Shown here piece by piece: positions 2,741 to 50,230 of a stretch of 50,230 nucleotides of DNA. How positions within the stretch are numbered: the stretch's first letter is position 1; every line of letters starts with the position of its first letter. The translations under genes were made by a program, and so were the position numbers. Source of the DNA: a virus; IMG/VR virus record IMGVR_UViG_3300027743_000008, positions 1 to 50,230 of that record; one strand, 5' to 3'. The notes under the pieces were generated by a model. That model saw only the letters and a list, made by a program, of their open reading frames with translations, searched no databases and was not told the DNA's origin.

Positions 2741-2854
2741 GAAATCCCCTATAGCAAAATCTGGAAATCCGAATTTTCCATGAAACCGAACGGTTTCGAA
2801 ATCTCCTATAGGAACTCCCCGAAATCCGAATTTTCCAGGAAACCCGACGCTTTC
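2741..2854. repeat. 57-bp imperfect tandem duplication over the HNH gene 3' end
   Basis: Two adjacent 57-bp copies (2741-2797 and 2798-2854) share GAAATCCGAATTTTCCA and CCTATAG blocks. The right-hand copy contains the last codons of the DUF3223/HNH gene. The left-hand copy lies just beyond its stop. Confidence 0.85.
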
Positions 2855-3528
2855 GAACGGTGGGCGTCGCGGTGGCACTCGATGCAAAGCAGCTCCAGAC
2901 GGCACTTGCCGTCATGGAACTCCCGCCAACGCGATGCGCTGTCCGGATCGACGAATTTCGCCTGCGCCCCGCCACGGTCGGTTTTAGGCTCTCCCCAGAA
3001 CAGGGTCTCCTTTTCGACCCAGACCGCCAGCAACTCGCACAGCGTCACGCCTATCGAGTGATGCACGTCGAGCGCATCGCCGGACGACACCCGCCCGCAC
3101 GTCTCGCATCTGTCTCCTCTTCCCGCCCGGTAGGCGTCTATCGTCGGCTGCACCGCCCTTCTCGCGACCTGCACCATGAAGCTGCGATCCGAGCGCCTCG
3201 ACAACGCGCTCCTCCACGCGAACCCGTCGGCGAGAGACCCGTCCCTGTAGTGGACACGCACGGCGCGAGAGTTATCAAAACGAGGTCCAGCACGCGCTCC
3301 TTCGATGACCGCCATCTCGTTGGCCGTGATGATGTCGAAATGATCGATGTTGTCGAGCCTCCTCGAACTGTTGGTGTTGGTATGCCGCATCGCCACCAAC
3401 GCAGAAAAAAGTTCATGCCCGTGTCCAGTCAACGGTTGATGCAAGGGTTGGGCGCGCACGAAGGCGAGGACGTAATCTCCGGCAGCCTTCTTGGATGGAA
3501 ACTCCATATCGGCTATTTTGATCTGCAT
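2806..3528 (-). CDS. DUF3223-like domain fused to HNH-type nuclease
   Basis: 240 residues. The N-terminal ~110 residues resemble the DUF3223 (DCL-like) domain, with a central RHTN...RAVRVHYRDG pattern. The C-terminal half has an HNH-like zinc layout: C141-x2-C144, HH at 156-157, then C215-x2-C218-H and H223. This predicts a metal-dependent DNA endonuclease, perhaps a homing or free-standing mobile nuclease. The last codons form one copy of a 57-bp duplication. The start at 3528 lies in an AT-rich stretch, and an array of inverted CAACTC-type repeats lies just upstream. Confidence 0.65.
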   Translation of the reverse strand: MQIKIADMEFPSKKAAGDYVLAFVRAQPLHQPLTGHGHELFSALVAMRHTNTNSSRRLDNIDHFDIITANEMAVIEGARAGPRFDNSRAVRVHYRDGSLADGFAWRSALSRRSDRSFMVQVARRAVQPTIDAYRAGRGDRCETCGRVSSGDALDVHHSIGVTLCELLAVWVEKETLFWGEPKTDRGGAQAKFVDPDSASRWREFHDGKCRLELLCIECHRDAHRSKASGFLENSDFGEFL

Positions 3529-6316: not shown

Positions 6317-9124
6317 TTAAAGCTTCCCATACCGTTCCGTCAGGATGCCGCCCTCGCTCGCGATGGGGAGACCGCTGGCCCATGCCGGTGGCGTCTCGAT
6401 GATCCGCTTCGCGTAGTCCGGATAGAAGCCGGGCGCGACCTCGAAGAGTAATTCGTCGTGGACCGACAGCACCAGCTCGGCGGCGAGGTCGGCGGAGACA
6501 CGCAGCGCGGCTTCGACGATGACGTCGCGAGCCACCGCTTGCGTCACGTTTTCCGCCAGCTTGGACCCCCACGTGCGGATCGGCTGCCACTGCTTGGTGT
6601 ACTGGTCGACGCCGTCGAACACGATGGCGGTATGATTAGGCTGGACCGGATCGACGACGAGGCGTGGGTTGCGATACCAAAGCTTTCTACCGGACGGCAG
6701 CTTGATCATGAGACAGGGATATCCGAAGCTATTGGCCACCACCATAACGATGCCGCGCGCATGGGTGGGGATGAACGGGTGCGTGATCGCCTGCTTCGCC
6801 GCCGCGTCCAAGTCCCACCAGAACTGTCTCGTATGGGCATTGGCGTCGCGCCATGCGGTGACGATTTCGAGGCTCTCCATCTTGGTGAGCCGAAGCCCGT
6901 TGGCCAACGCGAAGTCGACGAACGCTTCGTGGCCCATGCCGAAGCCCAGACCGAGGACCGCGACCTTGCCTGCCTTGCGTGAGCCAAGCCCCAGCCTGTC
7001 CGACGTGTGGGTGTAGACGTCCTCGCCCTTGCGGAAGACGTCAAGCACGTCGTTCTGGCCCGCCAGCCAAGCGAGAACCCTAGCTTCGATCTGCGAAAGA
7101 TCAAACACGAGGAACTGCTTCCCGTCCGAAGGGATGAGGCAACCGCGGAGACAGGCGGAGACAACAGCTAGGGGTTCGCCATAGAAGACCCCGAGGCCGT
7201 CGTTGCGCAGCCCCCCGAGGATCGCGTTGATCGCGTCGAGCGGGTTCCAGCCTTTTGGCGGGCGCGGGAAGTTCTGCGGCTGGATCAAACGACCTGAATT
7301 ATGGTGGATCAGTCCTTGGGCGACATAGCTTGCATCTCCTTCAACAGAGATGTCCCAAACTCCTCTTTCTCCCACAGGTGCAAGCGACCAAGCTTCTGCT
7401 TGTGCAGCGCCTGATGCCCTTTCGGCGTCACCAGAGCCAGATTGTCCAAGGTGTCGTTCGTCTTGTCTCCGTCGATATGGTGGACGTGCCAGCCCTCCGG
7501 CAGCTCCTTCAGTCCCAGCGCCGTCGCCATCGCGCTCCGGTGTTCGAAGGTGTAGCCATCGCCGTTCCACGTCGCCATTCGACCACTGTGCAAAACCCGT
7601 TTCACCGCGCTCTGTATGCCATAGTTGGGGTTCTTCGCCCCTACTCGGCTGCGAGAGTATGCCGCGCTCTTCAGGCGCTTGTATTCCGCCGGAGACAGCC
7701 GGGCTTTCAGCACCGCCCCCACGTTGTGCAGCGTCGTTCCCAACTTCGCCGCGACTTCCTCCATCGTGATGACCTGCGACCGATAGAGGCGTTCGACCTC
7801 CTCGCAGAACGAAGCGTCCGCCAGCATCTTCCTCGAAACACTCATCGATCCGTCTCCACCCCGTTTCCGTCATGATCCGGTGCGCCAGCGTCGCCTCGAC
7901 GAAAGCACCATCCGGCCCTTCGAGACGGTACATGGTCTCGATGCCTTTGTAAAATTTTGCCAGAACTTTCCGGGGTTGGCCACTGCCGCCGATGACGATG
8001 TCGCCGGGACGCAGCCCGATGATCCGTCGTGGCCCTTCCGGCGTGTCGACCAGCGTTCCGCCCGCAACGCAGAAGCGTCCCGTCCTCGCAGCGCCATAGT
8101 ATTGAAGCGTGCCGCGCACCCGGCCGTCGTTGTCGACCGTGTTCAGCATCGACTGGAGTTTCTTCACCGAGGACTTGGCGACCTTTTGTCTGATCGCCAG
8201 CACCTTGGTGCCGAGGGGAGACAGCCCGGCTTCAGGAGCCGTGTCCAGCGTGTCCTGGACCTCGTCCTTGCCGACGGTGGCCATCTTGACGCCTTGGCCC
8301 CATAACCAGCTCAGGAGACGTTGGGTCTGGGTGCCGGGAGACGTGACGTTGCCCCCGGTCAGGGCTTTGCACTCCGCGTCGAGCTTTTGGGTTTCTTCCT
8401 TGGCGATGCCGATCAGCGTGTGGATCAGGGGGATGTCGAGCCTGATGCCCTTGTCGTTGGCGATCCGGTCGAGGCGAGACACGGCTTTCTCGTAATCGGG
8501 CAGCTCCGGCGTAAGCTTGCACACGGCGCGCTCGGCGATTACGTCCTGCTTACAGTAAGCTTCGAGCGCAGACAGTTTTCCCAGATCGACGTCGTGCCAG
8601 AACGTGCCGTCCTGTTTTGGCCTGCACATCTGCATCATCAGGCGATGCCCGGCGACGTCCTTCAGGAGAGACGGAGCCAAACCGAGGGCTGGCCCGGCGT
8701 GTTCCAGCTTGGCCGGAAGCCCGGAGTACAGCGCCCGCTGCATGGAGCAGATCGCTTGGCGCGGGTCCATCTGCTTCACGCCGAACCAGTTGGTGATGAA
8801 GGCCCACTCGAAAGCCGCGTTCCACGCCACGAACTTCCCGTCCGAGGCGAGGTGCTGCGAGACATCGTGCGGCAGGCTTTTCGGCATCGTCACCGAGGAG
8901 ACGGGGCCGTCGTCGAACGCCCACGCGATGACCGTCACGATGGTATCCGGGTGCCGGGAGTAGGCGCTCGCGCCGACCTTGCGCAAATCTAGGGTAGAGG
9001 CTGTCTCCAGATCGAGGTGCAGCAGTCGGCGTTCCGGGAACACCTTTCCGGCAACCGAGGCCCGCGCATCCAAGTCCCCGATCCTTTTGATGATGGCCAT
9101 CAGGTCGTCGATGCCCACGCTCAT
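6317..9124 (-). CDS. family A DNA polymerase with 3'-5' exonuclease, interrupted by an intein
   Basis: 935-residue precursor. The start ATG at 9124 overlaps the upstream stop as ATGA. A longer frame to 9241 lies inside the upstream gene. Exonuclease motifs: LHLDLET, NAAFEWAF and YCKQD. Polymerase motif A is DLSQIEAR near residue 675, motif B is RKAGKVAVLGLGFGMG, motif C is SVHDELLFEV. Residues 352-609 (258 residues) are an intein inserted between TGRF and SGRLIQPQN, next to the conserved TGR motif. The spliced enzyme would be about 677 residues. No 5'-3' exonuclease domain is present. It replicates the phage genome with the primase-helicase encoded downstream. Confidence 0.93.
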   Translation of the reverse strand: MSVGIDDLMAIIKRIGDLDARASVAGKVFPERRLLHLDLETASTLDLRKVGASAYSRHPDTIVTVIAWAFDDGPVSSVTMPKSLPHDVSQHLASDGKFVAWNAAFEWAFITNWFGVKQMDPRQAICSMQRALYSGLPAKLEHAGPALGLAPSLLKDVAGHRLMMQMCRPKQDGTFWHDVDLGKLSALEAYCKQDVIAERAVCKLTPELPDYEKAVSRLDRIANDKGIRLDIPLIHTLIGIAKEETQKLDAECKALTGGNVTSPGTQTQRLLSWLWGQGVKMATVGKDEVQDTLDTAPEAGLSPLGTKVLAIRQKVAKSSVKKLQSMLNTVDNDGRVRGTLQYYGAARTGRFCVAGGTLVDTPEGPRRIIGLRPGDIVIGGSGQPRKVLAKFYKGIETMYRLEGPDGAFVEATLAHRIMTETGWRRIDECFEEDAGGRFVLRGGRTPLSVAGHHDGGSRGEVGNDAAQRGGGAESPAVSGGIQAPEERGILSQPSRGEEPQLWHTERGETGFAQWSNGDVERRWLHLRTPERDGDGAGTEGAAGGLARPPYRRRQDERHLGQSGSGDAERASGAAQAEAWSLAPVGERGVWDISVEGDASYVAQGLIHHNSGRLIQPQNFPRPPKGWNPLDAINAILGGLRNDGLGVFYGEPLAVVSACLRGCLIPSDGKQFLVFDLSQIEARVLAWLAGQNDVLDVFRKGEDVYTHTSDRLGLGSRKAGKVAVLGLGFGMGHEAFVDFALANGLRLTKMESLEIVTAWRDANAHTRQFWWDLDAAAKQAITHPFIPTHARGIVMVVANSFGYPCLMIKLPSGRKLWYRNPRLVVDPVQPNHTAIVFDGVDQYTKQWQPIRTWGSKLAENVTQAVARDVIVEAALRVSADLAAELVLSVHDELLFEVAPGFYPDYAKRIIETPPAWASGLPIASEGGILTERYGKL
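7298..8071 (-). mobile_element. intein within the DNA polymerase
   Basis: It begins with Cys1 (CVAGGTLVDT, block A) and has a block B-like segment ATLAHRIMTETGW with the T-x-x-H pattern. It ends with block F/G, VWDISVEGD...IHHN, followed by Ser as the +1 extein residue. These are the nucleophiles and terminal His-Asn needed for class 1 protein splicing. No endonuclease domain is encoded in this frame: the central ~140 residues are Gly/Ser/Arg/Glu-rich with no recognisable fold. An HNH endonuclease is instead encoded in the +1 frame within the same DNA (7309-7845). Confidence 0.92.
7309..7845 (-). CDS. HNH homing endonuclease nested out of frame inside the intein
   Basis: 178 residues on the same strand as the polymerase but in the +1 frame, wholly inside the intein DNA. 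The frame has a stop at 7870 and then its own ATG at 7845, preceded by GGAG with an eight-base spacer, and it ends with TGA 11 bp before the intein end. The N-terminal part resembles a helix-turn-helix (MEEVAAKLGTTLHNVGAVLK). A KNPNYG segment follows, then an HNH core WHVHHIDGDKTNDTLDNLAL near residues 119-138. Homing nucleases of this type spread inteins by cutting intein-less alleles. Here the nuclease would be a separate protein. The last ~35 codons overlap intein block F in the other frame. Confidence 0.85.
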   Translation of the reverse strand: MSVSRKMLADASFCEEVERLYRSQVITMEEVAAKLGTTLHNVGAVLKARLSPAEYKRLKSAAYSRSRVGAKNPNYGIQSAVKRVLHSGRMATWNGDGYTFEHRSAMATALGLKELPEGWHVHHIDGDKTNDTLDNLALVTPKGHQALHKQKLGRLHLWEKEEFGTSLLKEMQAMSPKD

Positions 9125-49139: not shown

Positions 49140-50230
49140 CTATTCGCGGGCGAGTGCCTTCACGAGCGCGTTGAGACCGGCCCGCGTGATGTCGCGGCTG
49201 TCGCATTCGACGGCAAGGCCGAAACCCGGATGCACTGGTGTATCGATGCACAGCACGGCGGTTTCGACGTCGAGGCGTCGAGCGTAGGCGTTTGCGCTTT
49301 TGACGCCTTCCGGCCCATAGGCGCAATCGCCATCCGTCACCACGAAAAGCACTTTGCGTTTGGCGGGCGCGCGCGCCGCAAGCTTGGCGCTGGCTTGGAC
49401 AATCGCGCCCGTAATGTCTGTGCAACCGGCCGGGTTTGTCGCTAGCGACGCGAAACGGTTTTGGACGTCCGCCTGCGACAAGCTTTCATTGGGCCGCTTG
49501 ACGGCGCGTGGCGTTCCCTCCGTGAAACGCGTGATGCCGCACTTGACGCCGACTTGCTTGGCCGCTTGCGCAATAACGAGTGCCAGCGTCGCCGTGGCGT
49601 ATGCGGCCTTGCCCCGCATCGAAGCCGAACCGTCGCAGAGGATTTCGATTTCGGTCTGATAGCCTCCCGCGATGGTACGTTTCGCGAAAACCGAATTGTC
49701 TCCGCTTGCGACGCGGGCATAGGCGAAACGATCGAGACGGCCCGTCGGGCGCGCCCGTTCCCAAGTTTCGGTTTCCTCCGATTTCAGGACACGGGCGACT
49801 TGCGCCCGGAGTTTCCCGGAACGCGCCGCAACGGCGCGCAAGTTGGTTGTGGTGGCATTGTCCGGGCCGCGATTGGCCATATGCAGGAACGGTTTCCCGG
49901 CAGTTTCTTGCGCCCGGCGGATCGCCGCGATAACCGCCATTTCGACTTGCGCGGCATGGCCGCTTTTCGAAAGCGCGTCGACGGTATCCCTCAACGTTTC
50001 CGACATCGGTTGCATATCGACCTTGGCGCATTTCGTGACATCGGTCTGCGGCAAGTCGGCGGCGTCGCCGTCGCCCATGCCCGCCTTGCCGTCGCCGTCG
50101 CCTTGCGCCGCACCCTTGGAAGGCTCTCCATCGGCCTTGGAGGCGTCGCCATCGGCCTTTGCCTCTCCATCGGCCTTGGAGGCGTCGCCATCGGCCTTTG
50201 CCTCTCCATCGGCCTTGGAGGCGTCGCCAT
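49140..50230 (-). CDS. CobT-like VWA protein, C-terminal part (gene enters from the right edge)
   Basis: An open frame enters from the window edge in the same phase as the N-terminal part at 1-818. After the acidic ADGEAK-type repeats and a DGDGKAGMGDGDAA linker comes a VWA domain. Its MIDAS residues are visible as LCDGSASM, TDITGAIVQASA and VLFVVTDGDC. The C-terminal domain of CobT-like proteins binds the AAA+ partner and metal. Ends with TAG and a strong terminator. Confidence 0.85.
   Translation of the reverse strand, partial: GDASKADGEAKADGDASKADGEAKADGDASKADGEPSKGAAQGDGDGKAGMGDGDAADLPQTDVTKCAKVDMQPMSETLRDTVDALSKSGHAAQVEMAVIAAIRRAQETAGKPFLHMANRGPDNATTTNLRAVAARSGKLRAQVARVLKSEETETWERARPTGRLDRFAYARVASGDNSVFAKRTIAGGYQTEIEILCDGSASMRGKAAYATATLALVIAQAAKQVGVKCGITRFTEGTPRAVKRPNESLSQADVQNRFASLATNPAGCTDITGAIVQASAKLAARAPAKRKVLFVVTDGDCAYGPEGVKSANAYARRLDVETAVLCIDTPVHPGFGLAVECDSRDITRAGLNALVKALARE
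50134..50230. repeat. right copy of the 97-bp terminal repeat
   Basis: Identical to bases 1-97. Just upstream of it the sequence diverges from the repeat by one base (AGGCTCTCCATCG), so the 97-bp identity is bounded within a short tandem array. Confidence 0.9.

Follow-up and report, generated by a model that had tools for sequence, protein, structure and literature searches.

The family-A DNA polymerase gene of virus record IMGVR_UViG_3300027743_000008, analyzed here as a single stretch of 50,230 nucleotides (the window), very probably carries a mini-intein overprinted by a separately translated HNH homing endonuclease. Translation of the polymerase frame would give a precursor from which the intein, its two ends folding together around a long disordered loop, would splice out, and ribosomes initiating on the same mRNA at an internal GGAG/ATG would produce the HNH nuclease as a free protein. 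Polymerase genes that lack the insert would be its substrates: a nick or cut close to the conserved TGR(L/F)SS motif would be followed by repair that brings in the intein together with the nuclease gene. Selfish elements repeatedly use this overlapping intein/HNH layout to place two proteins on one stretch of DNA. The features concerned are listed below.

6320–9124, minus strand: family-A DNA polymerase, the host gene (open frame; DNA_pol_A; phrog_17; alignment)
7298–8071, minus strand: intein of 258 aa in the polymerase frame (splice motifs; Hint_2 and Intein_splicing; mini-intein matches in sequence and fold)
7298–7360, minus strand: splicing blocks F–G of the intein (VWDIS...LIHHN); the same DNA encodes the C-terminal tail of the HNH protein
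7309–7845, minus strand: HNH_3 nuclease ORF of 178 aa in the +1 frame, inside the intein (HNH_3; phrog_7545; alignment with L028)
7854–7857, minus strand: GGAG, Shine–Dalgarno-like, 8 nt 5' of the HNH ATG (sequence GGGGTGGAGACGGATCGATG)

Three other features of the record were observed. A second, weak HNH-like ORF (2806–3528, minus strand; phrog_3106, E 2e-4) was apparently free-standing, and two adjoining perfect 7-bp tandem arrays, GCGCTCG x8.4 and GACGGGA x5.4, occupied positions 2544–2639. A 39-bp tandem unit was common to both ends of the record (1–104 and 50124–50230), so the contig may be a complete genome, either circular or terminally redundant.

Intein in the polymerase frame

The polymerase frame ran uninterrupted on the minus strand from the ATG at 9124 to 6320, open through the intein as the preliminary description had held, and comprised a precursor of 935 aa, or 677 aa without the 258-aa intein. 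It matched DNA_pol_A (E 2e-18) and phrog_17, a DNA polymerase family (E 3e-94). The 258-residue insert separated ARTGRF from SGRLIQPQN (insertion point TGRF^SGRLIQPQN). When nine other phage polymerases were aligned over this point, six were insert-free and colinear and three had inteins in the same motif. In viral contigs, 78 of 80 related polymerase loci were colinear over the site without an insert, a count that includes locus L177, both halves of which aligned despite a lower-identity intein at the site. The nearest polymerase relative (L124, 52% identity) was also colinear without an insert. The element is thus an in-frame insertion at a conserved site for which insert-free homologues exist, as is characteristic of inteins, and it lies in a single continuous frame, not in halves on separate ORFs as in a split intein.

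The polymerase of L177 (2974–5847) carried an in-frame intein at exactly the same site as in the window (RTGRY^C...N^SGRLIQ), and no nested HNH was found in it. The middle of the L177 intein looked like a LAGLIDADG-type nuclease by eye, which Pfam did not confirm.

All of the motifs of a splicing-competent intein named in the preliminary description were present in the window: Cys1 (CVAGGTLVDT), TxxH (ATLAH/TLAH), block F (VWDISVEGD), the terminal His-Asn (LIHHN), and Ser+1. Hint_2 and Intein_splicing scores were under the Pfam cut-offs for the window intein and over them for the intein of locus L028. Solved mini-inteins matched the window intein by sequence, the best being gp41-1 (E 5e-4). 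The AlphaFold model of the intein had confident HINT-fold ends (about residues 1–90 and 230–258), and the best PDB matches in a fold search with this model were mini-inteins (E 6e-7 to 1e-3). The approximately 125 middle residues, which are read across the HNH DNA, mostly had pLDDT <50 and are predicted to be disordered, which agrees with the earlier proposal that the intein frame across the nuclease is not selected to fold. Judged by its motifs and predicted fold, the window element is probably a self-splicing intein.

The nested HNH frame

An HNH ORF with its own ATG, ribosome-like site, and stop lay wholly inside the intein from 7845 to 7309, offset by +1 from the polymerase codons ([9124 − 7845] mod 3 = 1), as had been described; the nuclease does not share the frame of the splicing domain, as it would in a full-length intein. 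Protein searches of both frames returned an intein in one and an HNH nuclease in the other, the latter matching HNH_3 (E 4e-10) and phrog_7545 (E 1e-18). The ORF was alignable to the L028 HNH starting at the first Met, and the conserved HNH columns (HH, N, H) were intact in the alignment. Confidence in the structure model of the HNH protein was only moderate (mean pLDDT 66), and neither Foldseek nor VIA-align found a significant fold match for it; they returned weak helix-turn-helix rows (residues 5–63) and a row for I-HmuI that was not significant. The HNH assignment therefore rests on sequence. The nested ORF encodes a probable homing nuclease, which would cleave DNA and promote homing.

The overlap with block F that had been noted earlier was also found, the C-terminal residues of the HNH protein coming from the block F–G DNA (7298–7360) read in the other frame. 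A similar C-terminal tail (..SLWEL..) was shared by the HNHs of the polymerase inteins L028 and L029 and was missing from group I intron HNHs, which suggests that the HNH entered a pre-existing intein and runs on to a stop inside the splicing block.

With the HNH protein held fixed, the polymerase frame was open in 0.86% of synonymous permutations, and in 0.28% when host codon usage was applied. For L028 and L029, the same permutation test gave 0.05% or less. All 26 tested free-standing or intron HNH relatives had stops in both other frames. A second frame open by chance is disfavored for the window (P <0.01).

Recurrence, selection, and alternative readings

The first five HNH relatives were all out of frame and nested in terminase-type inteins. 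An HNH-alignment scan yielded 80 loci. When these were pooled with the window and the loci found earlier, the HNH was out of frame, with a host ORF continuing past it and intein ends, in 71 loci forming 47 clusters (80% HNH identity). These counts are not unbiased frequencies, because they come from a survey that started from one HNH sequence motif and in which second-frame openness was the criterion for nesting. The combined openness probability over clusters is likewise conditional on calling nesting by openness. No in-frame HNH was seen in the surveyed loci (71 nested loci, 47 clusters). The preliminary description therefore needs amendment, since the layout is not unique and at least 47 distinct inteins share it. 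Among the bacterial and archaeal genome loci, seven of 16 were nested, including a Thermoplasmatales terminase (L113) and the DNA methylase intein of Candidatus Accumulibacter (L111). With dozens of replicates, the layout offers a naturally occurring overlapping-gene system in which to test how a second frame stays open.

A single offset, with the HNH at host +2, was shared by 44 of the 47 clusters; the host ORFs matched Pfam Intein_splicing in 38 of these 44 and a terminase large-subunit family in at least 35. The three polymerases (window, L028, and L029) had offset +1. In 13 of the 44 clusters, the Tyr/Phe-Asp/Asn codons of block F form the HNH stop (e.g., TAT-GAC), which may help account for the fixed offset. 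Shine–Dalgarno-like sites were found 5' of 68% of HNH starts versus 26% of matched random starts. The GenBank phages Highwayman (L016), Tetrasphaera phage TJE1 (L018), and LS06-2018-MD07 (L023) have an unannotated nested HNH in the terminase large subunit, indicating that gene callers missed it in these three phages.

No relatives turned up in viral contigs when the intein N-half or the whole polymerase was used as a single-protein query, and the polymerase gene gave no match to phages in a distant blastn search. Since the window has no close relative, selection was assessed on terminase-type relatives and not on the window element itself. In nine diverged terminase-type pairs, not all independent and with saturated values omitted, dN/dS was 0.08–0.24 for the HNH frame, 0.73–1.73 for the host (intein) frame over the HNH DNA, and 0.06–0.30 for the host frame up- and downstream of the HNH. 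The comparison of dN/dS in the two frames that had been proposed thus found purifying selection on the HNH frame and near-neutrality of the intein frame over the same DNA in these relatives, which argues that the nuclease is selected as a protein and that the intein frame over it is merely kept open.

If the element had instead decayed, the HNH frame would be a dying remnant and the intein alone functional. The selection test rests on relatives, intein DNA supplies the HNH C-terminus, and a few relatives have broken frames, all of which would fit such decay. The window HNH, however, has a start, a ribosome-like site, an intact HNH motif, and no internal stop, and it is the HNH frame that is constrained in relatives; we therefore consider decay improbable. 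The relatives with broken frames are L041 (2224–4626), with a host frame broken within the HNH region and intein halves in different frames, and L112 (2679–4418), with a host frame broken within the HNH region by a frame shift relative to its near copy L111. These broken frames may reflect decay, sequencing error, or a split intein.

The polymerase might also tolerate an unspliced insertion that is no intein, like the ShiLan domain, an out-of-frame HNH that has no splicing domains (PMC11855218). This is very unlikely, given that the insert has intein blocks and a confident predicted HINT fold and splits a conserved polymerase motif, where a 258-aa loop left in place would probably be harmful.

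Assembly or sequencing indels could in principle make a conventional in-frame HNH intein appear offset, and such errors do occur in a single unclosed environmental record like this one. That would take a pair of compensating indels, whereas the HNH is bounded by a start and a stop of its own; moreover, the layout is repeated in 46 other clusters, including the sequenced isolates L016, L018, and L023, and a neutral intein frame with a constrained HNH frame is not an indel signature, making this explanation hardly credible.

Carriers of the HNH module and comparison with known systems

In the HNH tree, whose support was moderate, the polymerase-targeting HNHs of inteins and group I introns fell together (one change; SH-aLRT 90); terminase HNHs of inteins were intermixed with those of free-standing neighbors. 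The inteins of the window and L028 are inserted after TGRF, that of L029 lies two codons downstream, as does the mini-intein of Microcystis phage Mvi-JY20 (L007), and the group I introns of Pf-WMP3 and Providencia phage PS3 lie within about 8 codons of the window insertion site. I-PfoP3I of Pf-WMP3, which is related to the window HNH, nicks the polymerase gene in this region (PMC3428280). From the shared tree group, the clustered sites, and the nicking by I-PfoP3I, the nuclease appears to follow its DNA target and to switch carriers. Although homologous intron HNHs sit close to the site, the chance that the window insert is itself an HNH-bearing group I intron excised from the RNA is negligible: Rfam gave no match in the window at gathering score, and the insert reads through in frame and contains intein motifs, whereas HNH genes of introns are interrupted by stops in their two other frames. 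We see about an even chance that the overprinted inteins constitute a widespread, largely undescribed phage intein class with a freely translated homing endonuclease, in at least two independent fixed-offset forms (polymerase +1 and terminase +2), whose HNH module, depending on its target gene, moves among group I introns, inteins, and free-standing sites.

A partly published precedent, which further amends the preliminary description, exists in the ShiLan domain of mycobacteriophage DNA methylases, an out-of-frame HNH in which the authors report neither a splicing domain nor a ribosome-binding site (PMC11855218). The window shares with it an HNH gene in another frame within an insertion across which the host gene stays open, but differs in having a splicing domain (a predicted HINT fold with splice-site residues) and a GGAG. 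For overlapping reading frames, PMC11855218 cites a 2025 preprint by Gosselin, Arsenault and Gogarten (doi 10.1101/2025.01.02.630785). Nothing closer than ShiLan was found in the literature searched, this preprint aside. From its title ('Non-Canonical Architecture') and the citing sentence, the preprint, on actinobacteriophage inteins, may describe related inteins. A DNA methylase of Candidatus Accumulibacter (L111, 2688–4724) has an intein at its TMKP motif with an out-of-frame HNH, and would in kind be a spliced counterpart of ShiLan.

The HNH-bearing group I introns of phage DNA polymerases (Pf-WMP3/I-PfoP3I, PMC3428280; PS3) resemble the window element in their homologous HNH, their location in the same hot spot, and a nuclease that is its own protein, but their carrier is a self-splicing RNA and the second frame is not open, whereas the carrier in the window is an intein. 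One nuclease family apparently exploits a shared gene hot spot by RNA splicing in one phage and by protein splicing in another. The Mvi-JY20 polymerase mini-intein is related to the window intein and lies in the same motif, but it has no nuclease and a short loop; by analogy, it may show the form of the window intein before overprinting.

Conventional full-length inteins combine two activities in one polypeptide, with the nuclease in frame between blocks B and F. The window element shares with them a HINT domain and the location of the nuclease between these blocks, but its nuclease is a separate ORF in another frame and not part of the intein polypeptide. Because carrier and nuclease share DNA and not a polypeptide, expression and evolution of the nuclease can proceed independently, and loss of the nuclease need not harm splicing.
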